A stretch of DNA of 58,515 nt from the NCBI GenBank assembly GCA_030524715.1, contig JAUNGB010000023.1, positions 1 to 58,515 of the forward strand. The letters run 5' to 3'. Shown here in pieces: positions 3,675-16,422 of this stretch; the first letter of the stretch is position 1; each line of letters starts with the position of its first letter. The position numbers and the translations under genes were made by a program. The DNA comes from Eubacteriales bacterium (GTDB lineage: Bacteria > Bacillota > Clostridia > Lachnospirales > Lachnospiraceae). The notes below the pieces were generated by a model. That model saw only the letters and a program-made list of their open reading frames with translations, had not been told where the DNA came from and did not search any database.

Positions 3675-3756
3675 TTCGTACACCTCCAATTCCGGAATAA
3701 AGTGAAATGTATTTTCGCAGAAACAGACACGGGCGCCCCTGCGAACATGCTTTTAT

Positions 3757-3785
3757 AGTTTAGTATAATTCCCTCTGAATGTCAA
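3757..3785 (-). promoter_or_regulatory. SigA-type promoter of rpsT
   Basis: Read on the minus strand: TTGACA (plus 3780-3785), a 17-base spacer, and TAAACT (plus 3757-3762). A GC-rich GGGGCGCCC segment lies in the leader, between promoter and gene. Confidence 0.75.
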
Positions 3786-3890
3786 TACATATTTCCTCAA
3801 AAAATGAGAAAAATAAGAGAAAATAAGAAAAAAGGTGTTGCTGTGAACGGAGTGAGCAGTAACGAAATAAGGAATCCGGAGGGTGAAAAT

Positions 3891-4799
3891 ATGTTGGGAA
3901 ATTACAGAATCAGAACCGACCTGGCATTGGAGACAAAAGAGCGTTTTGCGGAGGAAAACGTAGAGGTCAGGGGAGTGGAGGTCAGTGAGGATTACAACAA
4001 GGAAAAAGATATCCGCACAACAGTTGTGAAGATCAGGACGGAGAACGGAGCAAAAACCATGGGACGCCCGCAGGGAAACTACATTACCATCGAGGCCCCA
4101 AACCTTTCTGTTCCAGATGAAGATTATCACAGAGAGGTTTCAGAAGAGATTGCCCGGCATCTGCGCCAATTGATCGATCTGAACAAAGAGCAGTCGATTC
4201 TGGTGGTCGGTCTGGGAAATCTGGGCATCACCTCAGACTCTCTTGGTCCGCATGTGGTGGAAAACCTTCATATGACCCGGCATATCATCCGGGAATACGG
4301 CCTCAATGGGATGGGACAGGAAAAGATGCACCGTACCAGCGGCATTATTCCCGGTGTTATGGCACAGACAGGAATGGAAACCTCAGAAATCGTAGAGGGG
4401 GTTGTGGCGGAGACAAAGCCGGATGTGGTGATCGCTGTGGATGCCCTGGCGGCGCGGAGCACCAGGAGACTTAACCGGACGATTCAGATCACGGATACAG
4501 GCATCCATCCGGGTTCCGGCGTGGGAAATCACAGAATCGGGCTTACAGAGGAAAATCTTCAGGTTAAAGTAATCGGAATCGGTGTTCCTACCGTTGTGGA
4601 TGCGGCGACAATCGTGCATGATTCCATGGCGCATCTTCTGGATGCTCTGGATGAGGCGGAGCAGAAGGAATTTCTGGAGGAAATGATTTCTCCGCATCTG
4701 CACAGTATGTTTGTCACACCGAAGGATGTGGATGAGACAGTGAAATATTTAAGCTTTACCATTTCAGAGGGACTGAATCTTGCTTTTGCAGAAGTATAA
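3891..4799 (+). CDS. gpr: GPR endopeptidase (spore germination protease)
   Basis: Degrades small acid-soluble spore proteins at germination, freeing DNA and supplying amino acids. The 302-residue protein carries the N-terminal RTDLA motif that resembles the SASP cleavage site and is tied to self-processing. It also has VVGLGNLGITSDSLGP (Asp116) and VIAVDALAARS (Asp184). These two acids are spaced like the proposed catalytic Asp pair of the A25 family. The ATG at 3891 has GGAGGG 7 bases upstream. An earlier in-frame ATG at 3804 has no such site and adds a lysine-rich tail foreign to the family. spoIIP follows 43 bases later. Expression in the forespore is expected from the family, but I could not identify a convincing sigma-G promoter. 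Confidence 0.95.
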   Translation: MLGNYRIRTDLALETKERFAEENVEVRGVEVSEDYNKEKDIRTTVVKIRTENGAKTMGRPQGNYITIEAPNLSVPDEDYHREVSEEIARHLRQLIDLNKEQSILVVGLGNLGITSDSLGPHVVENLHMTRHIIREYGLNGMGQEKMHRTSGIIPGVMAQTGMETSEIVEGVVAETKPDVVIAVDALAARSTRRLNRTIQITDTGIHPGSGVGNHRIGLTEENLQVKVIGIGVPTVVDAATIVHDSMAHLLDALDEAEQKEFLEEMISPHLHSMFVTPKDVDETVKYLSFTISEGLNLAFAEV

Positions 4800-4842: not shown

Positions 4843-6273
4843 GTGACGAATTTCCAGAAGGCATGTTGTGTATTGTTAAGCCTGTGTTTTTTTGCTGTCC
4901 TGGCAGTGATGCCGGGTCCCTTTTTCCTGAAAGGCAATGTGTACAGGCAGCTTCCGCTGTACTGCTTTCTGGAAGAAGAGGCCCGAAGCATTCCTCAGAG
5001 AGAAGATCCGGAAACATACGAGAAAATTATCGAGAGCAACGCGGGATATCTGAGTGAGCGGATGCAGGAGGAAAACGCGGCTGCTTCCGGGGAAGAAGAG
5101 GATACTTCTGCTGTAAAGGAGGACAACCTGACAGGGAAGGATAAGACAGAGCCGGAGGGTGAAGAAGAAAGCAAGACAGAGCCGGAAGAAACGACAGATC
5201 CGAAGGGTGAGGAAGAAACGATAGCTCCAGAGGGCAAAGAAGAAACGACGGAGCCGGAGGGCGAAGAAGAAAACAAGAAAGAGCCGGAAGAAACGACATC
5301 CCCGGAGGGTGAGGAAAAAACGACATCCCCAGAGGTTGAAGAAGAGAAAACGGAGCAGAAGGGCAAAGAAGAGAAAACAGAACCAGAAGGTGAAGAAGAG
5401 AAGACGGAGCCGGAAGAAACGACAAACCCGGAGGACGAAGAGAAGACAGAACAGGAGTCAGCTTCGGCAGCAGCACAGATTCAGCCGCAGCCGGTCATTG
5501 ATCTTTCCCCGGAGGTGCTGGCGGATTACGATTATGTTATGAATCAGTTTTTTGTTCTGGATCCCAATACAGCTACAAGCGCAGAACAGATCAATGCAGC
5601 CCGGTTTCTTGGGGAAGACCTGACGATGGAAAAGGATGCTTCTGTCCCGCAGATACTCATTTACCACAGTCATTCCCAGGAGACCTTTGCGGACTCCCGA
5701 GAGGGAGAAGCGGAGGATACGGTTGTAGGAGTAGGGAATTATCTTACCAGTATTCTCACAGAAACCTATGGCTATAATGTTTTGCATGTGACCGAAACCT
5801 TTGATATTGTTGACGGAGAGCTTGACCGAAGCGCTGCCTATGATTACTCCGGAGAGTATGTGGAGCAGGTGCTGGAGGAAAATCCTTCTATAGAAGTAGT
5901 GATCGATCTTCACCGGGACGGTGTTCCGGAGGATCGTCGTCTGGTTACGCAGATCAACGGCAAGGATACCGCTCAGATCATGTTTTTTAACGGATTGAGC
6001 TACACCCAAAACAGCGGGCAGATAGATTATCTGCCTAATCCGTACATACAGGATAATCTGGCCTTTTCTTTTCAGTTGGAATATCAGGCCGCCCAATACT
6101 ATCCGGATTTTTACCGGTGCATTTACCTGGCGGGGCTTCGTTATAATCTGCACCTCCGCCCAAGAGCGATTCTTCTGGAAGCAGGCGCCCAGACTAATAC
6201 TGTCCAGGAGGTAAAGAATGCCATGGAACCGTTTGCGGATATTTTAGACAGAGTGCTAAGTGGAAGGGCATAA
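4843..6273 (+). CDS. spoIIP: stage II sporulation protein P, with long acidic linker
   Basis: A peptidoglycan amidase/endopeptidase of the SpoIIDMP engulfment complex, anchored in the septal membrane. Residues 5-28 form the membrane anchor. From about 85 to 210 the protein is a degenerate repeat of PEGEEKTE-like units, far more acidic than in most homologues. The catalytic domain then has QILIYHSHSQE near 270, VIDLHRDGV near 353, and LLEAGAQTNTVQEVKNAMEP near the end, giving the zinc-binding His and catalytic Glu. The start is GTG, preceded by AGAGGTGATC. It is probably cotranscribed with gpr or has its own sporulation promoter. The call is firm; the function of the linker is unknown. Confidence 0.94.
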   Translation: MTNFQKACCVLLSLCFFAVLAVMPGPFFLKGNVYRQLPLYCFLEEEARSIPQREDPETYEKIIESNAGYLSERMQEENAAASGEEEDTSAVKEDNLTGKDKTEPEGEEESKTEPEETTDPKGEEETIAPEGKEETTEPEGEEENKKEPEETTSPEGEEKTTSPEVEEEKTEQKGKEEKTEPEGEEEKTEPEETTNPEDEEKTEQESASAAAQIQPQPVIDLSPEVLADYDYVMNQFFVLDPNTATSAEQINAARFLGEDLTMEKDASVPQILIYHSHSQETFADSREGEAEDTVVGVGNYLTSILTETYGYNVLHVTETFDIVDGELDRSAAYDYSGEYVEQVLEENPSIEVVIDLHRDGVPEDRRLVTQINGKDTAQIMFFNGLSYTQNSGQIDYLPNPYIQDNLAFSFQLEYQAAQYYPDFYRCIYLAGLRYNLHLRPRAILLEAGAQTNTVQEVKNAMEPFADILDRVLSGRA

Positions 6274-6288
6274 TTGCCAACAAAGTTC

Positions 6289-6317
6289 TTGTTTTATACG
6301 GAAATTCGTTTTACAAT
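6289..6317 (+). promoter_or_regulatory. putative SigA promoter of nitroreductase gene
   Basis: TTGTTT, a 17-base spacer, and TACAAT. The gene's ATG is 49 bases downstream. Confidence 0.45.
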
Positions 6318-6365
6318 ATGGAATACAGAACACAATTTTATAATACCAGAAGGGAGTACAGAAGA

Positions 6366-6884
6366 ATGAACGAAGTATTGAAAAGCTTAATGGAGCGTAG
6401 AAGCGTGCGCGGTTACAAAAAAGATCTGGTACCACAGGAAATTCTGGATGAGATTCTGGAAGCAGGAAAATATGCTCCCAGTGGAATGGGAATGCAGGGA
6501 ACAATGATGGCAGTCACTCAAGATCCGGAGCTGGTAGCCAGACTTTCCAAAATGAATGCAGCGGTCATGGGGTCAAAGGCGGATCCATTTTACGGTGCGC
6601 CGACAGTTGTGATCGTATTTGCTGACAGCAGCCAGGGAACCTTTGTGGAAAACGGCAGTCTTGTCATGGGAAATCTGATGCTTGCAGCTCATGCGGCAGG
6701 GGTGGATTCCTGCTGGATACACCGGGCAAGAGAAGTCTTTTCCAGTGAGGAAGGCAAAAAGCTGAAAAAAGAATGGGGTATCCCCGAGAGCTATGAAGGA
6801 ATCGGACACTGTATCCTTGGATATCGAAGCGGGGAATATCCCAAGGCGAAGCCAAGAAAAGACAATTTTGTAGTAAGGGTATAG
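6366..6884 (+). CDS. nitroreductase-family FMN oxidoreductase
   Basis: A 172-residue flavoenzyme of the nitroreductase fold, probably reducing nitro compounds, quinones or flavins with NAD(P)H. The N-terminal RRSVRGYKK motif binds FMN phosphate. APSGMGMQ near residue 38 and the terminal GHCILGY segment are also typical. The chosen ATG is 9 bases after GGAG. An upstream in-frame ATG at 6318 overlaps the -10 box and is rejected. A short 9-bp hairpin TCCGAAAAG/CTTTTCGGA (6890-6913) follows the gene without a T tract. Substrate is unknown. Confidence 0.87.
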   Translation: MNEVLKSLMERRSVRGYKKDLVPQEILDEILEAGKYAPSGMGMQGTMMAVTQDPELVARLSKMNAAVMGSKADPFYGAPTVVIVFADSSQGTFVENGSLVMGNLMLAAHAAGVDSCWIHRAREVFSSEEGKKLKKEWGIPESYEGIGHCILGYRSGEYPKAKPRKDNFVVRV

Positions 6885-6899
6885 CATTTTCCGAAAAGG

Positions 6900-7166
6900 T
6901 CAGTCTTTTCGGAGATGCCTCCAGATTATATGAAAAATGATAGTTGTCAGTGTGATACCTGCAGACATACTGGCTGCGAAAAGCAGGGCATAGGTGCTTT
7001 CTACCGTGAAGGAAGCCAGATCCTGACGCATGAGGCAATTCATGGCGCGGTAGAGTGCGGCTTCCGGGATAAGAGGGATGGCAGCAGCCACAAGAAAGAC
7101 TGTAACAGGAGTTTTGTGGATGCGGGCCATCCCCTCTTTGTAAATGGTATTAAATACGGCTATCAA
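6900..7166 (-). pseudogene. remnant of ThrE/YjjB-type threonine/serine exporter subunit
   Basis: An 88-residue reading frame that matches only the C-terminal half of the small ThrE-type (YjjB, DUF3815) membrane subunit. It keeps ARIHKTP, a PLIPEAALYRAM segment and two hydrophobic helices. Normal members are ~150 residues and read PLIPG here; the Gly-to-Glu change and the missing N-terminal helices suggest decay. Upstream in frame the sequence runs into the promoter of the large surface protein gene without family similarity. No partner ThrE subunit is present. Confidence 0.6.
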
Positions 7167-7205
7167 TGAATTATTATCTATAACAAAATTAAAAGAGTTC
7201 CTTTG

Positions 7206-7234
7206 TTGACACCTATATAAGAATATGCTATCTT
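7206..7234 (+). promoter_or_regulatory. SigA promoter of surface repeat protein gene
   Basis: TTGACA (7206-7211), a 17-base spacer, and TATCTT (7229-7234). The palindrome at 7236-7253 begins one base later, so transcription should start inside it. Confidence 0.75.
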
Positions 7235-7235
7235 G

Positions 7236-7253
7236 AGTTAGTAATTGCTAACT
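7236..7253. promoter_or_regulatory. operator-like palindrome AGTTAG-N6-CTAACT
   Basis: Two 6-base arms around TAATTG; the core TTAGTAATTGCTAA is nearly symmetric. It is placed just after the -10 box, where a repressor would block initiation. The shape resembles MarR-family sites. No regulator gene is nearby. Confidence 0.55.
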
Positions 7254-7278
7254 AACGCGTATAAGAAAGGGGCTTACA

Positions 7279-10200
7279 GTGAAAACAAGGAGGAAGTTAG
7301 GAAAAGGTCTGTCGTTTGTAATGGCGGCAGCGGTTACATTAAATTCTGCGGCTGTAGTACCTGTAGCTGCAGCAGATGAGACACTATGGATATCTGATTC
7401 AGAAGGCCTATTCTCTGATATGGAAGGTATGCCACAGACTACGGCAGCAGGGCAAAATGCAGCAGGAGAGGATATTACTGATAATTCAGTAAATGCTTTT
7501 ACTTCGGAACCAGCAGACGATGCGGCATTGGCTCAGAGTATAGCGTCAGAGGATGCAGCGGAAACGGATTTGTTCGGAACAGGTGATTTGAAACCGGCGC
7601 CAGCGGAGGTTAAAGGTGAATATCAATCTGTTTTTTTGGATCAATATCTTATCATAACAGTGGAACAAGGTAATGACTATGTGAAGGGAATTACGGAAAT
7701 AAAGGTCAATGATACGAATTTGGCTTCTACAGATTACAAATCATCTTTGTTTGGCTCAGACAAGTACTATTTGGATAAAGAAAATTCTAAAATATATTTT
7801 GACGGTAGTTCCGGAGGAGGTAAATATAAATTAGAAGAGGAAGATATTGTTACTATTGAAAGTGAAGGCTATGAAACTCTCAAATTGAAAGTAACCGGCT
7901 CCGGCTCTGGTTTTGGTGTGGAAGTTGTTCAGAAAGAGCCGGAAAAGAAACCTGCTCCGGAAGTAAGCGCTGAGAAAATAAGCGAAGGATTCAACAGTTT
8001 TTTAGCTATAAATGTATCGGATGAGGAATATGTGAGCGGCGTTGAGAGTGTCAGCATCAATGGAATGGAATGGCAAGAGGTAAGTTCAGAGATAAGCTTG
8101 TTTGGCTCAGACAAATATTACCTGAAACAAGACAGCTATCAGATATATTTTGACGGCAGCGGTTCAGGTGTGCTGAAAAAAGGAGACACAATTACTATTA
8201 GTAATTCGGCTTACAATGATTTAGTATTGACGGTAACAGGCGATGGAGAAGAGTTTGCTGTTGCACCGTATGACCCAGAGGTTAAGCAAGATACCCTGCA
8301 TGTTCGCCTGATCGGATCCTTTGAAAGTGCAATTACCGGACAGAAAGGATATGATGCCGTCAGCGGCGCTTCTACGTCTGTATCTACAAATAAAAACAGT
8401 AACGTATTCGTTCAGGCAGTTGTTTTACCTGATGGCCAGGAGCCGACAGAAGAGAGCTGGGCAGACCTGAATGATGTGGTTCGCGTAAATGCACAGAAGA
8501 CAAAGGTAAATATAGATACAGAAAATAGCGGTATGGCAGGAGTTTATTCTACATATGACAGTTCCCTGACGCTTTCCGGTACACCGAAAGAACCCGAAGA
8601 ATACTTTGTCAGCGTAACTGTTACTGATGAGAGTGGACGTACGGCAACCAGCAATAGCCTGAGCTTCAAAGTATATTCGGGAGATGAGAAACTGATCGAC
8701 CAGCTTACTCTGGCAAATTCAACACAGACAGCCGATGGGAAATATATGTATGATATGGAACCATGGGCAATAAAGAATTTCGGCGGAGAAAACGAGACAG
8801 TAACTGTCCCTAAGGACATTAAAGCGTGGTATGGCTCCCATACAAGCGGTACCTACGGAGAATTGGGATACGCAGTACAAGACGCCCCGGTACAGACTTT
8901 AATAGTTCCGGCCGGATGCAGTCTGACTTTTGTAAATATGAAGATTTTAAGCAGTGTGAAGATTGTAGTGGAGAACGGCGGTAAGCTGAATCTTCGTGAT
9001 TCTTCCCTGCATGGGCAGATTGAAGTAAATAATGGCGGAACCTTTTCCATGAATTATGACGATTATTCGGGAGAATTTCTAACGGGGTCTTCCATTAACG
9101 GACAGTTAATCCTCAATGACGGTGCAGTGCTGGAAAATTCCCTGATTTATTCTAATACTAATTTCCTTCCGAATGGAGACGAAGCGCGTCACAATACTGC
9201 GCCTGTTGTAGTGACAAACGGTAATGTGACAATACGGGGAGAGGTTTGCATAAGAGGCGATGAAGCGGCTACAGGTACGGACCCGAACACAGGAAAAAGT
9301 TATTCCGGACAGCCGGCATTGCAGGTGAATGGTAATTTGACAGTTGGGGATAGCTCGGTATTGGCAGTATATGGCGGTGGAAAAGATGCTACTACATCTG
9401 TTGGCGGTGATGCATTGATTCTTAATAATGGCACAATTACCGGAAGTGGGAAACTGATTGCTGTCGGCGGCAGTGGGAGCATGGATAATGGTGGAAATGC
9501 AGTGTCAGGAAATGGAGAGATTTCTGTTGCTGAAATTTATCTGGAAGGCGGAAATACTTATTTCCCTAAGTCCGGCAGTACTGCAGGAAAAGCTGTTACG
9601 GAAAATATTACGGTCTCTGACGAAACAAAAAATTACAAAAAAGATGGAAAAATCGTAAAAGATAACAGTGAAGAATACCCTCCTGAGACTTATTGGACTG
9701 ATATCACAAAGAAACCGGATTTGAACTCTTACGTGATACCTGAACCGACCGTTACTCCGACCCCAACACCTGCGGCTACTCCGGTACCGACCTCTGCTCC
9801 GACTCCGCTGCCTACGACTACTCCGGTACCTACGACTACTCCGGTACCGACTGCTGCTCCGACTCCAGTACCTACAACGCCGTCAATCCCGGTTTATCCA
9901 GGTACTCCCTCACAGCCCGGCGGAAGTACGACCACACCAGACGGTATTGTGATAGGAAGTGACGGAACCATTACACTGCCGGATGGTACGCAATTGAAAC
10001 CGGATGATAAAGGCAATAAACCTTCAGTTGATAAAGACGGCAATGTTACGGATGTGAACGGAACAGTTATCCGGGCGGATGGAATTATTATTCTTCCGGG
10101 CGCGGATTTAAATTCTACAGCAGATGATACCAAGGTAGAACAGGGTACAGGAATCAGCAAACCAGTATACGATCCTAAGACGGGAAGTGTTACCACAGAC

Positions 10201-11034
10201 AATGGCAATAAGGTGACTCAGCCGGGAGGAAATATTGTAATAACATCTGCCGGAGCTGTTGTGAAGCCTGATGGAACGATCAATGAGACAGATGGGACGA
10301 TCATCGCGCCGGATGGAACGGCTACAAAACCCGACGGAACTATCATTGATGCGGACGGAACCATCCATAATACGGACGGCAGCGTCCAGACTTCTGATGG
10401 GACCTACCTTATTCCCGCAACTCCATGGCTGGAAAGAGCGGAGGTTTCGGTTTTCGGCAATCAGGTAAAGGCTGTTTTAGCGGGAACTGTTAATGGAGCT
10501 CAGGGATATGATTACGTTATCAGCGAGAATATTGATTGTATCAAAGACAAAGACTATCTTGCACGGAGTAAAAATATTCTTTTAACAAAAACAAGCTTCC
10601 GCTATATTCCGGCAGGTACATATTATGTATACTGCCATGCATGGATTCGCGGTGCGGATGGTAAAAAGATATTCGGAAATTGGTCCAACTATAAAACTGT
10701 GACAGTAACAGCGACCACTCCGGCAACACCGAAAATTGCCAGCGTGAAAATAAAGGGAAAAAATGTCACGGTTACTTATACTCAGTGCGAGGATGCGGCA
10801 GGATATGACATTGTTCTTGGAAACAGTGCAAAGAAGGTTTATGGAGAAACTCGTCCTGTAGATTACGGAGACAATGTAAAGAAAGTAAAAAGTGGAAACA
10901 CTGTGACGATTACTTTTAAAAATGTAAAATCAGGGGTTTACTATACAGGTCTTCACGCATGGAACAGAACCAGTGAAAATGGAACGAAAGTTTTCAGCCC
11001 CTGGTCTGATCTGAAGAAAATAAGAGTGAAATAA
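7279..11034 (+). CDS. large secreted repeat protein with DUF1533-like pair and xDGTIxx heptads
   Basis: A 1251-residue exported protein of unknown function. Residues 1-32 form a signal peptide ending PVAAADE. Two related ~100-residue units follow (about 115-215 and 225-328). Both contain SLFGSDKYYL...IYFDGS and resemble, by eye, the DUF1533 surface domain. Residues ~340-480 look Ig-like. About 550-800 is glycine/asparagine-rich and may form a beta-helix (NGGKLNLRDSSLHG). A Pro/Thr linker spans about 820-880. DGT-rich repeats follow, ending with seven consecutive heptads at 997-1045. Two C-terminal fibronectin-like units come last. No LPXTG motif or wall-binding repeats are visible, so its attachment is unclear. 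The start is GTG after AAAGGGG. Confidence 0.8.
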   Translation: MKTRRKLGKGLSFVMAAAVTLNSAAVVPVAAADETLWISDSEGLFSDMEGMPQTTAAGQNAAGEDITDNSVNAFTSEPADDAALAQSIASEDAAETDLFGTGDLKPAPAEVKGEYQSVFLDQYLIITVEQGNDYVKGITEIKVNDTNLASTDYKSSLFGSDKYYLDKENSKIYFDGSSGGGKYKLEEEDIVTIESEGYETLKLKVTGSGSGFGVEVVQKEPEKKPAPEVSAEKISEGFNSFLAINVSDEEYVSGVESVSINGMEWQEVSSEISLFGSDKYYLKQDSYQIYFDGSGSGVLKKGDTITISNSAYNDLVLTVTGDGEEFAVAPYDPEVKQDTLHVRLIGSFESAITGQKGYDAVSGASTSVSTNKNSNVFVQAVVLPDGQEPTEESWADLNDVVRVNAQKTKVNIDTENSGMAGVYSTYDSSLTLSGTPKEPEEYFVSVTVTDESGRTATSNSLSFKVYSGDEKLIDQLTLANSTQTADGKYMYDMEPWAIKNFGGENETVTVPKDIKAWYGSHTSGTYGELGYAVQDAPVQTLIVPAGCSLTFVNMKILSSVKIVVENGGKLNLRDSSLHGQIEVNNGGTFSMNYDDYSGEFLTGSSINGQLILNDGAVLENSLIYSNTNFLPNGDEARHNTAPVVVTNGNVTIRGEVCIRGDEAATGTDPNTGKSYSGQPALQVNGNLTVGDSSVLAVYGGGKDATTSVGGDALILNNGTITGSGKLIAVGGSGSMDNGGNAVSGNGEISVAEIYLEGGNTYFPKSGSTAGKAVTENITVSDETKNYKKDGKIVKDNSEEYPPETYWTDITKKPDLNSYVIPEPTVTPTPTPAATPVPTSAPTPLPTTTPVPTTTPVPTAAPTPVPTTPSIPVYPGTPSQPGGSTTTPDGIVIGSDGTITLPDGTQLKPDDKGNKPSVDKDGNVTDVNGTVIRADGIIILPGADLNSTADDTKVEQGTGISKPVYDPKTGSVTTDNGNKVTQPGGNIVITSAGAVVKPDGTINETDGTIIAPDGTATKPDGTIIDADGTIHNTDGSVQTSDGTYLIPATPWLERAEVSVFGNQVKAVLAGTVNGAQGYDYVISENIDCIKDKDYLARSKNILLTKTSFRYIPAGTYYVYCHAWIRGADGKKIFGNWSNYKTVTVTATTPATPKIASVKIKGKNVTVTYTQCEDAAGYDIVLGNSAKKVYGETRPVDYGDNVKKVKSGNTVTITFKNVKSGVYYTGLHAWNRTSENGTKVFSPWSDLKKIRVK

Positions 11035-11045
11035 AAAAAGTAAGT

Positions 11046-11078
11046 GTTACTGTTTGCACCGTAAGTATGAACAGTAAC
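11046..11078 (-). repeat. 33-nt dispersed hairpin repeat, copy 1 (reverse orientation)
   Basis: Arms GTTACTGTT and AACAGTAAC with a 15-base centre. The centre matches the other copies when read on the minus strand. Confidence 0.75.
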
Positions 11079-11082
11079 AAGT

Positions 11083-11116
11083 AAGGGGACGGCTGTAAAA
11101 GCAAGCCGTCCCCTTT
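11083..11116. terminator. strong GC hairpin terminator after surface protein gene
   Basis: An 11-bp stem AAGGGGACGGC/GCCGTCCCCTT around an 11-base loop, followed by a short T run. It directly follows dispersed repeat copy 1. Confidence 0.65.
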
Positions 11117-11117
11117 G

Positions 11118-11147
11118 TTGACGCAGAAGAAATCATTATGGTATAAT
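11118..11147 (+). promoter_or_regulatory. SigA promoter of GNAT gene
   Basis: TTGACG (11118-11123), an 18-base spacer, and TATAAT (11142-11147). Confidence 0.7.
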
Positions 11148-11250
11148 GCATATATTTATTCTGCATTATAAGAGCAGAATACAGGAAGTGAAGAATAGAT
11201 ATTCGCTATTATATTTGTTGTCATATGTCAGGAAAGGGTATTGTGAGTGG

Positions 11251-11841
11251 ATGAACAGAGAAGGAATAAAAATACGGATAGCCCGGCCGCAGGATGCGGA
11301 GGCTTTGCTTAAAATTTACGCGCCGTATGTTACGGATACGGCAATTACTTTTGAATATGATGTTCCTTCGGTTCAGGAATTTGCAGATAGAATCTGTAAA
11401 ATTCAAAAGAAATATCCGTATCTGGCAGCAGAGGAAGACGGACAGGTGGTTGGCTATGCCTATGCGGGAGCTTTTCACGCACGTGCCGCTTATGAATGGG
11501 CAGTAGAAACTTCTATTTACGTGGACAAAGCGAAAAAAGGTATGGGGATCGGCAGTACCCTGTATGAGGCTTTAGAGAAGTGCTTATCTGCGCAGGGAAT
11601 TTTAAATCTGAATGCCTGTATTGCCTGCCCCCGGGAAGAAGATGAATATCTGACGAAGGACAGTATTTATTTTCATGAGCATTGTGGCTATCGACTGGTA
11701 GGGGAGTTCCGGCTTTGCGGTTATAAATTTAACCGCTGGTACAATATGGTGTGGATGGAGAAACATATTGGAACTCATATGGAGTGCCAGCCGAAAATAA
11801 AGGCTTTTGATGAAATCAGAGAAAATCTTCCTTATCAGTGA
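11251..11841 (+). CDS. GNAT N-acetyltransferase, phosphinothricin-acetyltransferase-like
   Basis: A 196-residue acetyl-CoA-dependent N-acetyltransferase. Typical of the Pat-like subgroup are IRIARPQDAEALLKIYAPYV at the N-terminus, GYAYAGAFHARAAYEWAVETSIYVD in the middle, and an acetyl-CoA loop KKGMGIGSTLYEAL. Family members acetylate phosphinothricin, methionine sulfoximine or similar amines, but this substrate is not known. The ATG at 11251 is chosen because the family's N-terminal strand starts there. The frame continues upstream to 11146, into the -10 box, which makes the longer form impossible from this promoter. Confidence 0.85.
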   Translation: MNREGIKIRIARPQDAEALLKIYAPYVTDTAITFEYDVPSVQEFADRICKIQKKYPYLAAEEDGQVVGYAYAGAFHARAAYEWAVETSIYVDKAKKGMGIGSTLYEALEKCLSAQGILNLNACIACPREEDEYLTKDSIYFHEHCGYRLVGEFRLCGYKFNRWYNMVWMEKHIGTHMECQPKIKAFDEIRENLPYQ

Positions 11842-11848
11842 AAAGGAG

Positions 11849-11876
11849 TGGTTACTGTTCATACTATGAATAATCG
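11849..11876 (+). repeat. degenerate half copy of the 33-nt dispersed repeat
   Basis: GTTACTGTTCATACT matches the left arm and part of the centre of copy 1 (read in reverse), but the right arm is missing. It lies just after the GNAT gene. Confidence 0.4.
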
Positions 11877-11907
11877 GTGTTTTGCGGCAATAAGATGTAC
11901 TATTCTT

Positions 11908-11936
11908 TTGACATTGATAAATGGATAGTGTAAAAT
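11908..11936 (+). promoter_or_regulatory. SigA promoter of membrane/protease operon
   Basis: TTGACA (11908-11913), a 17-base spacer, and TAAAAT (11931-11936). It lies 25 bases before the first start codon of the four-gene operon. Confidence 0.75.
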
Positions 11937-11960
11937 CGGTTACAAGGGAGGTGAGAGAGA

Positions 11961-12521
11961 TTGCAGGAACGTCCAGAAGAAGCAGTCAAGAGGATCAGCA
12001 GGGAAGAATATGAACGGGAAATTGCACAGTTAAAATACTGTCTGGAAATAGGAAAAGAAGCTTATGCACAGGAAAACACCAGGACGGAGACATTGAAAAT
12101 GAGGACGGAGAACATCGTGAAATACAGCACTGTCTTTGTTGCGATTGCAAACCTGGTTGTTTCACTTGTGGATAAGGGAGCGTTAGGGGTAAGTGTATCA
12201 TTGCCTGTAAAGGCGCTCTATATCGGGCTGATGGCAGCAATCATTGTCTGCATTATATTGGCGCTTATTGCACAGCGTCCAGTGCTTACGGAAATGTTTC
12301 CGGATGGGGTGTGGATGCTGGAAGAAGTCCGTTCACACCAGGATGAATACCAATATGAAAATGAACGTATTTATGAGCTGGTCCTGAGATATGCAGGCAG
12401 AACGAGAGTCATGAAAAAGAATAATGATACCTCTTTTAAACTGGTGACTGCTTCCTATGTTTTGTATATTCTCTCCATCATATTATTGGCAGTTTTGCTG
12501 GTTGTTACGTTAAATGTATAG
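11961..12521 (+). CDS. three-helix membrane protein with coiled-coil N-terminus
   Basis: A 186-residue protein of unknown function. Residues 10-50 are charged and predicted helical or coiled. Two adjacent membrane helices follow at about 57-75 and 83-105. A charged cytoplasmic stretch (DEYQYENERIYELVLRYAGR) leads to a third helix at about 163-184. The layout, with KMRTENIVKY before helix 1 and NNDTSFKLVTASY before helix 3, is reminiscent of SLATT/Pycsar-type membrane effectors. That is a similarity of form only. The start is TTG, placed 8 bases after GGGAGGTGA. It is the first gene of a four-gene operon ending at 14323. Confidence 0.7.
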   Translation: MQERPEEAVKRISREEYEREIAQLKYCLEIGKEAYAQENTRTETLKMRTENIVKYSTVFVAIANLVVSLVDKGALGVSVSLPVKALYIGLMAAIIVCIILALIAQRPVLTEMFPDGVWMLEEVRSHQDEYQYENERIYELVLRYAGRTRVMKKNNDTSFKLVTASYVLYILSIILLAVLLVVTLNV

Positions 12522-12535
12522 GAGAGGGAGAAAAC

Positions 12536-12715
12536 ATGGAGAGTACCAGGAAAGCGATGGAAAAGGAAGGCACCGTATCAGAAAGTACGGAAGAAACAGA
12601 ATCAATGAAAGAAGAAAGCTACCCGTCTGTTTTTTTAAACCGGAACCCATCTAAGGACTTGAAAAAACTCAGAGGAAAAGGGAGAAGTTTTCAGGCAAAT
12701 AAAAACGAACGATAG
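12536..12715 (+). CDS. 59-residue charged protein, unknown
   Basis: A small ORF with ATG preceded by GGAGAGGGAG. The N-terminal half is acidic (many Glu, Ser, Thr) and the C-terminal half basic (NPSKDLKKLRGKGRSFQ). There is no signal peptide or membrane helix and no family I recognise. It lies 14 bases after the membrane protein gene and 10 bases before the next small ORF of identical length. It may be an adaptor, regulator or substrate of the protease-like protein encoded two genes on. Confidence 0.6.
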   Translation: MESTRKAMEKEGTVSESTEETESMKEESYPSVFLNRNPSKDLKKLRGKGRSFQANKNER

Positions 12716-12725
12716 GAAAAAAATT

Positions 12726-12905
12726 ATGACAAGATTGAAATATGACGTAGCAGATAGGGAAATGAGGGAAGCATTGCAGAAAGGCATGGCTGACTACAAA
12801 AAGACAGCAGAGGATCGGTCTGCGGCTATAAAGAATGACAGGGCTGCCGGTACCCACGGAAAGAAATCTGATTTACGGAAACTGGCAGCGTTTGGCAGGG
12901 TTTAA
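12726..12905 (+). CDS. second 59-residue charged protein, unknown
   Basis: Begins MTRLKYDVADREMREALQ and is helical and charged, ending KLAAFGRV. Its ribosome binding site is AGGAAAAAA, of moderate strength. The stop overlaps the start of the next gene by one base (TAATG), a classic coupling arrangement that ties its translation to the protease-like gene. It shares its length but no clear sequence with the preceding small ORF. Function is unknown. Confidence 0.6.
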   Translation: MTRLKYDVADREMREALQKGMADYKKTAEDRSAAIKNDRAAGTHGKKSDLRKLAAFGRV

Positions 12906-14323
12906 TGAGAAACTTTTTATTTAAAGAGTTTTGCGCTCCTAATCTGGGCGCGGATATCATGGAAGTTGTGGCTTTTGACAGCGAGGAGCGGGAAAGCCTT
13001 GTGCCGGATATCCCAAAATACATCATTCCCAGATTAAAAATTTTTTGTGGTCAAACTACTATCTACTACATTTTTGAAAATGAATATATTGAAACAGAAT
13101 GGAAAGATATGATCAGTGTCCATTATATTAATACATCATATCAGACCAAAAGAACGGTAATGAGAGTGCATTTGTTCCGCCGGGAGGAAATGTGTGAAGA
13201 AGCATATCTGGGTTTCTTTACACTAAGAAGCATCAATGATGTTGACCTCATGCTTTCTTATGTATATCCGAACTGGAAGAACATAGCTTCTGATCTGCCG
13301 GAGAAAAGTTATATCATGACATATAAGAAAAGCGTACATATTTGCGGAACGGAGTTACATATGTACACGTATCCTTTATATGTGCAGGATTCTGCAGTTA
13401 CGAGCTGCTCCCATGCCAGTATGATAGCAATGTCAAAATATCTGAAGGGAAAATACCATTATCAGTGCATCCGGATATTTGACATGAATGACAGTTATAC
13501 TTATGGGAAGAAAAAGATTTATCCAACCCTGGGGCTGGACCCGCTTCAGATGCTGGAGATTTTAGATTCAAATGGGATTTTTGTCGATTACAAAACGTAT
13601 AGTGACGCAATGCAGAAAGCCGTGAAAGCACATATAGATTTCTGCATTGAAAGCGCAATGCCGGTGTTGCTTGGGATCCATATAAGGAATCAAGGAGAGG
13701 TTGCCGAGCATGTGATCCAGATTGTCGGGCACACTTTAGACTCGGAGGGGGAGAAAAATTACATCATTTATGATGATTCAGGCTATTATACTTCATACAG
13801 GAATCATGCCAAAGCAGGCTCCTTTGTCGATATCATCACATGGAAGGAAATGAAGCAGCTTCTGTCGGAAGGCAAAGACTACGAGTGTGGTTTCATTATG
13901 TATCCGATACATGAAAAAGTTTATATCTTGTATGATGAACTTCGGAGGCGGCATTTAAAAAGCTTTTTTGACCACATAAGCGGAACAGACGAAGAAGTTC
14001 AGAAAAAGACCAGGATACTGCTTGTTGATAATAACCTTGTGAAAGAATACCTGAATGACCTTATACTAAAAGAAAAGAAGGAGCACGATGAAACGGAAGA
14101 CGATATAGAATATGAAAGAATAGTTGAAGAAGAAGCCGGACGTTTGCTGAGGCAGAATCTCCCCCATTATATATGGGTATTGGAAGTGGACAATGGAAAC
14201 GGAAAACGGAGCCTGATATTGGCGGACCCGACACTTAATTCAGCCACAAGAAAAAATATTCTTTTATCGTCCGCAGTTTTTACTGTTACAGAAGGATTTT
14301 CGTTGCTGAATGATTTTGACTGA
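12905..14323 (+). CDS. papain-like (C39-type fold) cysteine protease-like protein
   Basis: A 472-residue cytoplasmic-looking protein. The middle part has the order expected of a papain-like hydrolase: Gln161 and Cys168 in QDSAVTSCSHASMIAMSKYL, His269 in AEHVIQIVGH, and Asp290 in YIIYDDSGYY. This matches the oxyanion Gln, nucleophile, general base and orienting acid seen in C39-like peptidases. The first ~150 residues and the C-terminal ~130 (with a strongly acidic helix KKEHDETEDDIEYERIVEEE) match nothing I know. There is no transporter domain and no export signal, so it is not an ordinary bacteriocin-processing exporter. Translation is coupled to the upstream 59-residue ORF. Confidence 0.65.
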   Translation: MRNFLFKEFCAPNLGADIMEVVAFDSEERESLVPDIPKYIIPRLKIFCGQTTIYYIFENEYIETEWKDMISVHYINTSYQTKRTVMRVHLFRREEMCEEAYLGFFTLRSINDVDLMLSYVYPNWKNIASDLPEKSYIMTYKKSVHICGTELHMYTYPLYVQDSAVTSCSHASMIAMSKYLKGKYHYQCIRIFDMNDSYTYGKKKIYPTLGLDPLQMLEILDSNGIFVDYKTYSDAMQKAVKAHIDFCIESAMPVLLGIHIRNQGEVAEHVIQIVGHTLDSEGEKNYIIYDDSGYYTSYRNHAKAGSFVDIITWKEMKQLLSEGKDYECGFIMYPIHEKVYILYDELRRRHLKSFFDHISGTDEEVQKKTRILLVDNNLVKEYLNDLILKEKKEHDETEDDIEYERIVEEEAGRLLRQNLPHYIWVLEVDNGNGKRSLILADPTLNSATRKNILLSSAVFTVTEGFSLLNDFD

Positions 14324-14328
14324 GTTTT

Positions 14329-14368
14329 AAAGAACAGAAGAAATCCGTGTGGCTTTAGATGCGCGGTT
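14329..14368 (+). repeat. ~40-nt dispersed RNA-like element, copy 1
   Basis: AAAGAACAGAAGAAAT followed by a hairpin CGTGTG (14346-14351), loop GCTTTAGA and TGCGCG (14360-14365), then GTTC. The second copy at 32360-32399 has CGCGCA in the left arm. The differences all keep pairing through G-U. Confidence 0.6.
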
Positions 14369-14412
14369 CCGTGGATTGAAACAAAGAACTAAATACAGAA
14401 AAACAGCCGAAA

Positions 14413-14457
14413 GGCAGGAATTTTGCAGAAATGCCCGTTTCCTGCCTTCCTTTTTTG
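14413..14457 (+). terminator. intrinsic terminator after protease-like operon
   Basis: An 8-bp stem GGCAGGAA (14413-14420) / TTCCTGCC (14439-14446), followed by TTCCTTTTTT. The rest of the 290-base gap holds the dispersed element and the lepA promoter. Confidence 0.75.
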
Positions 14458-14529
14458 GAGAAAAGCAAATTGAATGCAGATAAGAACCAGATGTCTCGGA
14501 AAATATTATAAGATAAATCGAATAGATGT

Positions 14530-14558
14530 TTGCTTTTTCTTTTATTATATGGTATGAT
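14530..14558 (+). promoter_or_regulatory. SigA-type promoter of lepA
   Basis: TTGCTT, a 17-base spacer, and TATGAT. The leader ends in AGGAGGAGCTCCT, where the ribosome binding site itself lies in a short palindrome. Confidence 0.6.
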
Positions 14559-14613
14559 GAACCTAAAATGAGAATGAAAGTATAGATTTGAGATAAGAGG
14601 AGGAGCTCCTGGA

Positions 14614-16422
14614 ATGACAGACCAGAGTAAAATTCGAAATTTTTGTATTATAGCACATATCGACCATGGGAAATCAACCCTGGCAGACAGAATTATTGAG
14701 AAAACCGGACTTTTGACAGAGCGTGAGATGCAGGCGCAGATTCTGGATAATATGGATCTGGAGCGGGAGAGAGGGATCACCATTAAGTCTCAGGCGGTGC
14801 GTATCATTTATAAGGCCAAAGACGGGGAGGAATATATTTTCAACCTGATCGATACCCCGGGGCATGTTGATTTTAATTACGAGGTATCCAGAAGCCTTGC
14901 CGCCTGCGACGGAGCGATTCTGGTTGTTGACGCGGCGCAGGGTATCGAGGCACAAACGCTTGCCAATGTATATCTGGCGCTGGACCATGATCTTGATGTT
15001 CTTCCGGTCATCAACAAGATCGACCTGCCAAGCGCGGATCCCCAGCGCGTTATCAATGAGATCGAGGATGTGATCGGGCTGGAAGCGCAGGATGCTCCGC
15101 AGATTTCAGCAAAGACAGGCATTAATATAGAAGAAGTCCTGGAGCAGATCGTGGAAAAGATTCCAGCTCCCGACGGCGATGCGGATGCGCCTTTGAAGGC
15201 GTTGATCTTCGATTCCGTCTATGATCCTTATAAAGGCGTAATTGTTTTCTGCCGTTTAATGGACGGGCGTGTAAAAAAGGGAACCCCCATCCGCATGATG
15301 GCCACCGGATTTAAGGCTGAGGTTGTGGAAGTCGGTTATTTCGGCGCGGGACAGTTTATTCCCTGTGACGAGCTGACCGCAGGCATGGTTGGATATATTA
15401 CTGCAAGTATTAAGAATGTCCGTGACACCCGTGTGGGAGATACTGTTACGGATGATTCACGCCCCTGCGCAGAGGCGCTTCCCGGTTATAAGAAGGTCAA
15501 TCCTATGGTCTACTGCGGCCTGTATCCGGCAGACGGCGCGAAATACGGCGACCTTCGCGATGCGCTGGAAAAGCTGCAGCTCAATGACGCCTCTCTGTTT
15601 TATGAGCCGGAAACCTCCGTTGCGCTGGGCTTCGGTTTCCGATGCGGCTTCCTTGGACTGCTCCATCTGGAGATTATCCAGGAGCGTCTGGAACGGGAAT
15701 ATAACCTGGATCTGGTAACCACAGCCCCCAGCGTTATTTATAAGGTGCATAAGACCAACGGGGAAGTGATCGATCTGACGAACCCTACCAACCTTCCGGA
15801 TCCGTCAGAAATTGAATATATGGAAGAACCGATGGTGAATGCAGAGATTATGGTAACTACGGAATTTATCGGCGCGATCATGGATCTCTGCCAGGAACGC
15901 CGGGGACAATACATCGGTATGGATTATATGGAAGAAACCCGTGCGCTGTTAAAGTATAAACTGCCGCTGAATGAAATTATTTACGACTTTTTTGACGCGC
16001 TGAAATCCCGTTCCAGAGGCTATGCTTCTCTGGACTATGAATTATGCGGCTACGAGCGCAGCGAGCTTGTGAAGCTGGATATTCTTGTAAATAAGGAGGA
16101 GGTGGATGCCCTGTCCTTTATTGTACACGGGGAAACCGCTTATGAACGCGGGCGCAGAATGTGCGAAAAATTAAAGGACGAGATTCCCCGCCAGCTTTTT
16201 GAGATTCCTATTCAGGCAGCGATCGGCAGTAAGATCATTGCAAGAGAAACAGTTAAGGCCATGCGTAAGGATGTGCTTGCCAAGTGTTACGGCGGCGACA
16301 TTACCCGTAAGAAGAAGCTTCTCGAGAAACAGAAGGAGGGTAAGAAACGTATGCGTCAGGTAGGCAACGTGGAAATCCCGCAGAAAGCATTTATGAGTGT
16401 GCTGAAGCTGGACGATAAATAG
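14614..16422 (+). CDS. lepA: elongation factor 4 (LepA) GTPase
   Basis: A ribosome-bound GTPase that back-translocates or remodels stalled ribosomes. The 602-residue length is standard. The G motifs are [10 protein letters not shown] (G1), RGITIKS (G2), DTPGHVDF (G3), NKIDLP (G4) and SAKTG (G5). They are followed by the beta-barrel domain, two alpha/beta domains, and the LepA-specific C-terminal domain with [24 protein letters not shown]. The ATG has AGGAGGAG upstream. It is followed directly by the lipoprotein gene and hemW, likely as one transcript. Confidence 0.98.

Follow-up and report, generated by a model that had tools for sequence, protein, structure and literature searches.

The contig JAUNGB010000023.1 (assembly GCA_030524715.1, Eubacteriales bacterium, Lachnospiraceae) was analyzed over positions 1–58,515 (58,515 nucleotides, nt), a stretch that is called the window in the following. 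It carries on the plus strand a cluster of four genes that encode proteins of 186, 59, 59, and 472 amino acids (aa). Conservation and a comparison of folds make the 472-aa protein a well-supported candidate for a papain-fold protease, whose activity is predicted. The four-gene operon represents a local variant of a wider module that combines this protease with a small protein. Relatives of the protease are scattered over other bacteria, plasmids, and prophages; most have a tiny gene beside them, and several adjoin known anti-virus genes. This suggests a module that has not been described so far and is probably defensive. The gene order, the catalytic residues, the papain-type fold, and a patchy distribution with copies on mobile elements are directly supported, and a defence role is favoured by the context of several relatives. 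As a tentative overall reading, held with less than even confidence, the operon may be a mobile proteolytic defence module, in which a small partner would restrain the protease and to which a membrane protein has been added in the window.

Organization of the operon and features of the predicted protease

The genome that contains the window (5.28 Mb, 210 contigs) has one copy of the operon. The first-pass annotation, made from the sequence alone, had proposed the four genes in this place and order, and the open reading frames (ORFs) were indeed found at 11961–14323. It had also proposed that the second small gene is coupled to the protease gene, and the overlap was recovered at 12903–12907. 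In the motif TAATG, the last A of the TAA of the small gene is the first base of the ATG of the protease gene. For the proposed strong promoter the result was mixed. The site in front of the operon is the top-scoring one on the plus strand, and one minus-strand site ties with it at 11/12. The number of promoter-like sites in the region is no higher than chance, because 10 sites were found, compared with a mean of 7.5 in shuffled sequences.

The four predicted active-site residues Gln161, Cys168, His269, and Asp290 were confirmed at the claimed positions, and all were invariant in an alignment of 20 proteins, which leaves out L028 (broken), L022 (a C-terminal fragment), and L029 (cut at a contig end). 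Further conserved positions in this full-length alignment are D441 (20/20) as well as D162, D291, and W424 (19/20 each). A structure model was generated with AlphaFold2 from a seven-sequence alignment (pTM 0.60). In the model, a helix (169–184) follows Cys168, His269 is situated within a strand (265–278), and Asp290 lies right behind a further strand (284–289). The order Gln-Cys-His-Asp/Asn, the Cys at a helix start, and the His in a later strand are the features that define papain-like enzymes (clan CA). A Foldseek search with this model led to matches with staphopain, phytochelatin synthase, and C39 peptidases over residues ~124–337, and the top match was 1y4h (staphopain, E 1.9e-4). A two-sequence AlphaFold2 model (pTM 0.35) yielded no match at E<=0.001, and staphopain was found at rank 13 (prob 0.82). 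Structure prediction and structure search, which had been suggested as a check of the first-pass annotation, thus found the papain fold, and the description as a papain/C39-like protease with additional regions at both termini was borne out by the residues and the model.

Searches of solved structures by sequence led either to no match or only to matches with E values of 0.3 and above. Of the 11 proteins in alignment A12, 5 had a match to the family Peptidase_C39_2 (PF13529) at E<=1, with a lowest E value of 5e-5. A match to this family was also obtained for 3 of 5 scanned plasmid or viral proteases, of which L068 passed the gathering score (24.7 vs 24). The window protein itself had no match to PF13529 at E<=1. 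A Pfam scan of it revealed no ABC transporter match, and no secretion signal was seen by eye. The operon is flanked by a GNAT acetyltransferase gene and by a gene that we take from its sequence to be lepA, and no transporter gene is present in the flanking genes, in agreement with the earlier view that the operon is not a bacteriocin exporter.

Table 1. Positions of the operon features and of the surrounding segment in the window
Feature	Position	Strand	Remarks
Sigma-70-like promoter site TTGACA-17-TAAAAT	11908..11936	+	11/12 consensus matches
186-aa membrane protein	11961..12521	+	TTG start; charged N-terminal helix, three hydrophobic segments by eye
Small protein 1, 59 aa	12536..12715	+	N-terminal half acidic, C-terminal half basic
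Small protein 2, 59 aa, proposed protease partner	12726..12905	+	adjoins protease gene, overlaps its start
472-aa predicted papain/C39-like cysteine protease	12905..14323	+	core ~residues 124–337, plus N- and C-terminal regions
Gln161 codon, predicted oxyanion-hole residue	13385..13387	+	invariant 20/20
Cys168 codon, predicted nucleophile	13406..13408	+	invariant 20/20
His269 codon, predicted catalytic	13709..13711	+	invariant 20/20
Asp290 codon, predicted catalytic	13772..13774	+	invariant 20/20
8.3-kb variable segment between spoIIP and lepA	6274..14613		spoIIP and lepA close neighbours in six relatives

Recurrence and distribution

The complete operon was also found in L002 (Lachnospiraceae bacterium UBA7179), which encodes a 175-aa membrane protein, small proteins of 54 and 59 aa, and a 508-aa protease with 36% identity to the window protease. 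In L029, from the same genus as the window, genes for a membrane protein and for proteins of 59 and 65 aa are followed by the start of the protease gene, within which the contig ends. L063 contains a membrane protein gene and one small ORF, and then the contig ends. The recurrence of the order membrane-small-small-protease in L002 and L029 and of membrane-small in L063 is beyond chance. Co-occurrence of the four genes elsewhere, a further suggested check, was therefore found in two loci, one complete and one cut, and more widely the protease occurs with one small gene.

At genus level, 5 of 64 genomes had a match to the protease profiles (one copy broken, one cut). The numbers for the family, order, and class samples were 6/299, 4/392, and 4/391 (one of the class matches a fragment), and in a phylum-wide sample 1 of 81 genomes matched. 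All of these counts include the window genome, which is the single match in the last case. The protease family is diverse and patchy, and comprises members from Clostridia, from proteobacterial and Hymenobacter plasmids, and from viral contigs. The window protease had no match among 50,697 phage records or among 72,556 plasmid records, and four earlier scans of viral sequences did not reveal any protease relative. With the relative L056 as query, three plasmid matches were obtained (Mesorhizobium, Shewanella, Hymenobacter), and the use of these three copies as leads resulted in a fourth plasmid (Pseudomonas aeruginosa) and five distinct viral copies. The P. aeruginosa plasmid copy had no DNA match in E. 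coli genomes. L078, a near-copy of L077 (13355/13356 bases), was not counted separately; L073, L074, and L076 are the same contigs as L071, L069, and L070, and L014 is identical with L005. The candidate L007 (E 1.6e-4) was dropped, as its frame contains stops and lies among apparent flagellar genes.

Small proteins encoded next to the protease

Of 21 loci (the 20 loci with a full-length protease and L029), 19 have an ORF of 52–83 aa beside the protease gene. It is located directly upstream in the three window-type loci and in all nine plasmid and viral loci, and downstream, up to ~200 bp away, in L005, L006, L009, L010, L021, L055, and L056. The small upstream genes are annotated in the four plasmids and are ORFs in the five viral copies, one of which was read by eye (L070, 7725–7913, 62 aa, C-terminal L). 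Short ORFs beside a protease gene can be due to chance.

In the window-type loci, the position and size of small proteins 1 and 2 are kept, and their sequences hardly. The position of small protein 1 is matched in L002, L029, and the single ORF of L063, with weak similarity. Clear homology exists between the small proteins of L055 and L056. Family-wide homology was tested by comparing three window-type pairs and L010 with a profile of six others, using 300 shuffled copies, and by the reverse comparison. It had to be rejected: the scores were equalled by 14 to 211 of the 300 shuffles, and by 11 to 294 of 300 in the reverse test. Family-profile scans of the window proteins gave no match to a known antitoxin family, and no double-glycine leader was seen by eye in the small proteins of the window. 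Of 19 small proteins, 11 end with L, I, V, M, or F (background approximately 0.237), which is suggestive only, and several end with [ST]-[LIV], e.g. YSL, CSL, or MTI.

The membrane protein and other gene arrangements

The four membrane proteins (window, L002, L029, L063) can be aligned over their full length, with ~25% identity to the window protein. Within the genus, the gene was detected in 2 of the 64 genomes, in both together with the operon. In the family sample, matches at E<=0.01 were present in 5 of 299 genomes, including the window genome and L063; G166 and G086 had matches at E about 0.005–0.007. The match in G267 (E 1e-5) is doubtful, with unrelated neighbour genes and no protease. 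The idea of a wider membrane protein family was rejected, the five genomes including the window, the cut L063, and the doubtful G267. The window protein matched no Pfam family above the cut-off and neither SLATT nor Pycsar families at E<=1, and no SLATT match at E<=0.5 was obtained for the L002 and the partial L029 proteins.

Other loci contain different additional genes. A gene for 208–238 aa is located upstream of the protease gene in L005, L027, L055, and L056, and a 186-aa gene downstream of the protease gene in L004 may be related to these, with weak similarity. L022 (2142–7131) contains a similar 187-aa gene, a gene for a 380-aa protein with an HExxH motif (HEVAH) seen by eye, a possible metalloprotease, and a DRT reverse transcriptase gene (UG5-nitrilase); a C-terminal protease remnant lies downstream of these three genes. 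The viral contig L069 encodes, in addition to the protease, a 184-aa protein (3718–4272) with hydrophobic segments and a SLATT_5 match below the cut-off (E 0.012).

Genomic surroundings

L071 is a P2-like prophage, in which the gene for the GPA replication protein (4.7e-127) is followed by the small gene, the protease gene, and then by portal and terminase genes. A published account describes the stretch between gpA and gpQ in P2-like phages as a hotspot for anti-phage systems (PMC9122126). Multiubiquitin and ThiF genes adjoin the protease module in 2 of 4 plasmid copies; one copy is located near TrlF, and one beside a caspase-family gene and a helicase gene. L056 lies among genes of the integrative and conjugative element (ICE) type, and L027 and L055 are next to IS66-type and IS21-type ORFs, respectively (by eye). 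L021 is situated among phage-like genes by eye, and PHROGs gave no firm match for its neighbours. Near the broken protease copy of L028 (6355–7011), an ImmA/IrrE-like gene is present on the opposite strand (PADLOC capP and RmrA-type matches).

In the window, spoIIP ends at 6273 and lepA starts at 14614. The segment between them contains the operon and genes for a nitroreductase, a 1251-aa surface-type protein, and the GNAT acetyltransferase. The comparison with relatives covers 11 of 18, those with lepA on the plus strand of the locus. In 6 of these 11 readable relatives a spoIIP-like stretch was found <=1.5 kb from lepA, in L032, L034, and L037 (same genus) and in L043–L045 (other families). 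A convincing match to the operon genes upstream of lepA was found in none of the 11, and L032, L034, and L037 had no protease match elsewhere in their genomes.

Two further features of the window were observed. In the 1251-aa protein (7279–11034), two stretches match the family of Shr-like haem-interacting domains, and a stretch rich in Pro and Thr was seen by eye. A 160-aa protein (2455–2937) matches PBECR4 (phage-Barnase-EndoU-ColicinE5/D-RelE like nuclease 4, E 2e-13); its gene is followed by an overlapping 126-aa ORF, and genes for DNA polymerase III delta and a germination protease lie on either side.

A tentative defence reading and its alternatives

According to the defence reading, the small protein next to the protease (59 aa in the window) would bind and silence the protease, as an inhibitor or a chaperone. 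When a phage infects the cell, or when the small protein is lost, the protease would become free and may then cut host or phage proteins, so that phage growth would stop. In the window form, the co-encoded membrane protein might be a dedicated target or effector, and the output would probably include membrane damage. We infer the restraining role from the constant pairing and from a terminator-like hairpin in some relatives, which would be expected to result in more small protein than protease. With a detector that was written after these sequences had been seen, 5 of the 9 upstream-type plasmid and viral loci (L066, L067, L068, L069, L071) were found to have a hairpin plus T run that separates the small gene from the protease gene, compared with 23 of 3600 random windows from the nine loci. 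The z values of RNA folding were -5.0 for L066, -2.6 for L068, -1.3 for L067, and +0.8 for L065, which has a 66-nt gap without hairpin. The gap is <=12 nt in L070 (3 nt), L075, and L077. In its broadest form, the proposal is a multi-phylum immune system with a papain/C39-like protease held inactive by a ~60-aa protein, which would be overproduced in some lineages via an intergenic terminator, and with a membrane executioner gained in the window lineage. This form is likewise tentative, and was judged slightly less probable than the defence module itself.

The origin of the hairpin detector weighs against the defence reading, and so do several further observations. A stricter simple terminator scan found a hairpin in 1 of 4 plasmid loci (L067 alone); L066 and L068 were missed because there the stem pairs with the T run as well. 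L068, L069, and L071 are related, and therefore the hairpins are not five independent events. No hairpin precedes the window protease gene. A small ORF beside the protease gene was not found in L004 and L027, and the notion of a single conserved partner is based on where the gene lies and how long it is, because the small proteins have no demonstrable family-wide homology. The membrane protein was found only with the window-type operon, bar the doubtful G267, and the L063 genome (G056) gave no protease match in a family-level profile search. Relatives of four query proteases were absent from the phage records. L005, L006, L009, and L010 adjoin housekeeping-like genes (by eye), not defence islands. 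With PADLOC 2.0.0 (2023), none of the four window proteins had a match at E<=1, and seven relative proteases yielded a single weak match to Csm2 (E 0.021).

The first-pass annotation had considered defence, toxin, or peptide signalling. Defence was favoured by the surroundings of the relatives, a toxin-antitoxin role is compatible with the data, and signalling gained no positive evidence. A toxin-antitoxin or maintenance module of mobile elements, with the protease as toxin, the small protein as antitoxin, and no dedicated anti-phage role, is unlikely, and survives best among the alternatives. The gene arrangement fits it, and the structural neighbours of the protease model include papain-like toxin/immunity pairs. 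Because of these neighbours and the weaker terminator evidence, it was weighted up and the defence reading down. The surroundings of several relatives (defence genes, the gpA-gpQ site) argue against it, as do the membrane protein and the second small protein of the window form.

Rather unlikely is a gasdermin-like system, in which the membrane protein would be the executioner, the protease merely its activator, and the small proteins chaperones. The gene order common to the window, L002, and L029 agrees with this idea. However, most protease relatives lack such an adjoining membrane gene, the membrane protein matches no known pore-forming family, and L063 shows no protease (its contig ends, and none was found in its genome). 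Maturation of the small proteins into a secreted signalling peptide is improbable: the C39-like fold, the adjoining candidate substrates, and the suggestive C-termini of 11 of 19 small proteins would fit, but no exporter lies beside the operon, the window small proteins show no double-glycine leader by eye, and the small proteins are not conserved in sequence. Least of all, and very improbably, the protease would remove ubiquitin-like tags, as multiubiquitin-ThiF neighbours in two plasmid copies and UfSP and ZUP1 among the Foldseek neighbours might indicate; no such genes were recognised in the vicinity of the window or of the remaining loci that were read, and the structural neighbours span many papain-like enzymes of other function.

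As far as it has been described (PMC12799240, and the gasdermin systems), bacterial protease-driven immunity makes use of trypsin-like and caspase-like enzymes. If the defence reading is true, a papain-like enzyme with a tiny partner would bring a further class of protease and a very simple mode of control to bacterial immunity, and the window lineage would have a papain-based counterpart of protease-gated cell death. The two-gene copies would be the minimal form of the module, which is directly testable. A search of the open-access literature did not reveal a published description of such a system.

Comparison with known systems

Bacterial gasdermins are protease-activated immune effectors. 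Gated nuclease-protease pairs (PMC12799240) are of the same kind. Both resemble the window operon in that, in defence contexts, a protease gene occurs together with a gene for a candidate effector, and differ in their trypsin- or caspase-like proteases, in contrast to the papain-like enzyme here. A Pfam scan of the window proteins gave no match to gasdermin or MBL nuclease families. SLATT and Pycsar effectors share with the window membrane protein an N-terminal helix followed by short membrane segments, whereas their Pfam families did not match it. Type II toxin-antitoxin systems are similar to the upstream-type loci in gene arrangement alone, with the small gene first beside a larger gene, and differ in that no known antitoxin family was matched here. 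C39 peptidases (PF13529) have the same Gln-Cys-His-Asp order, but for the window protein a PF13529 match, an ABC transporter, and a double-glycine substrate were not seen. Because the defining features were tested and not found, the operon was not classed as a C39 exporter, a SLATT system, or a PADLOC family. Staphopain is secreted, and staphostatin is larger than the small proteins here; the long N- and C-terminal regions and the lack of a secretion signal by eye also set the window protease apart. Nevertheless, the staphopain-staphostatin pair resembles the operon in two respects, a papain-fold protease is encoded with a small protein, and staphopain (1y4h) is the best structural match of the protease model.
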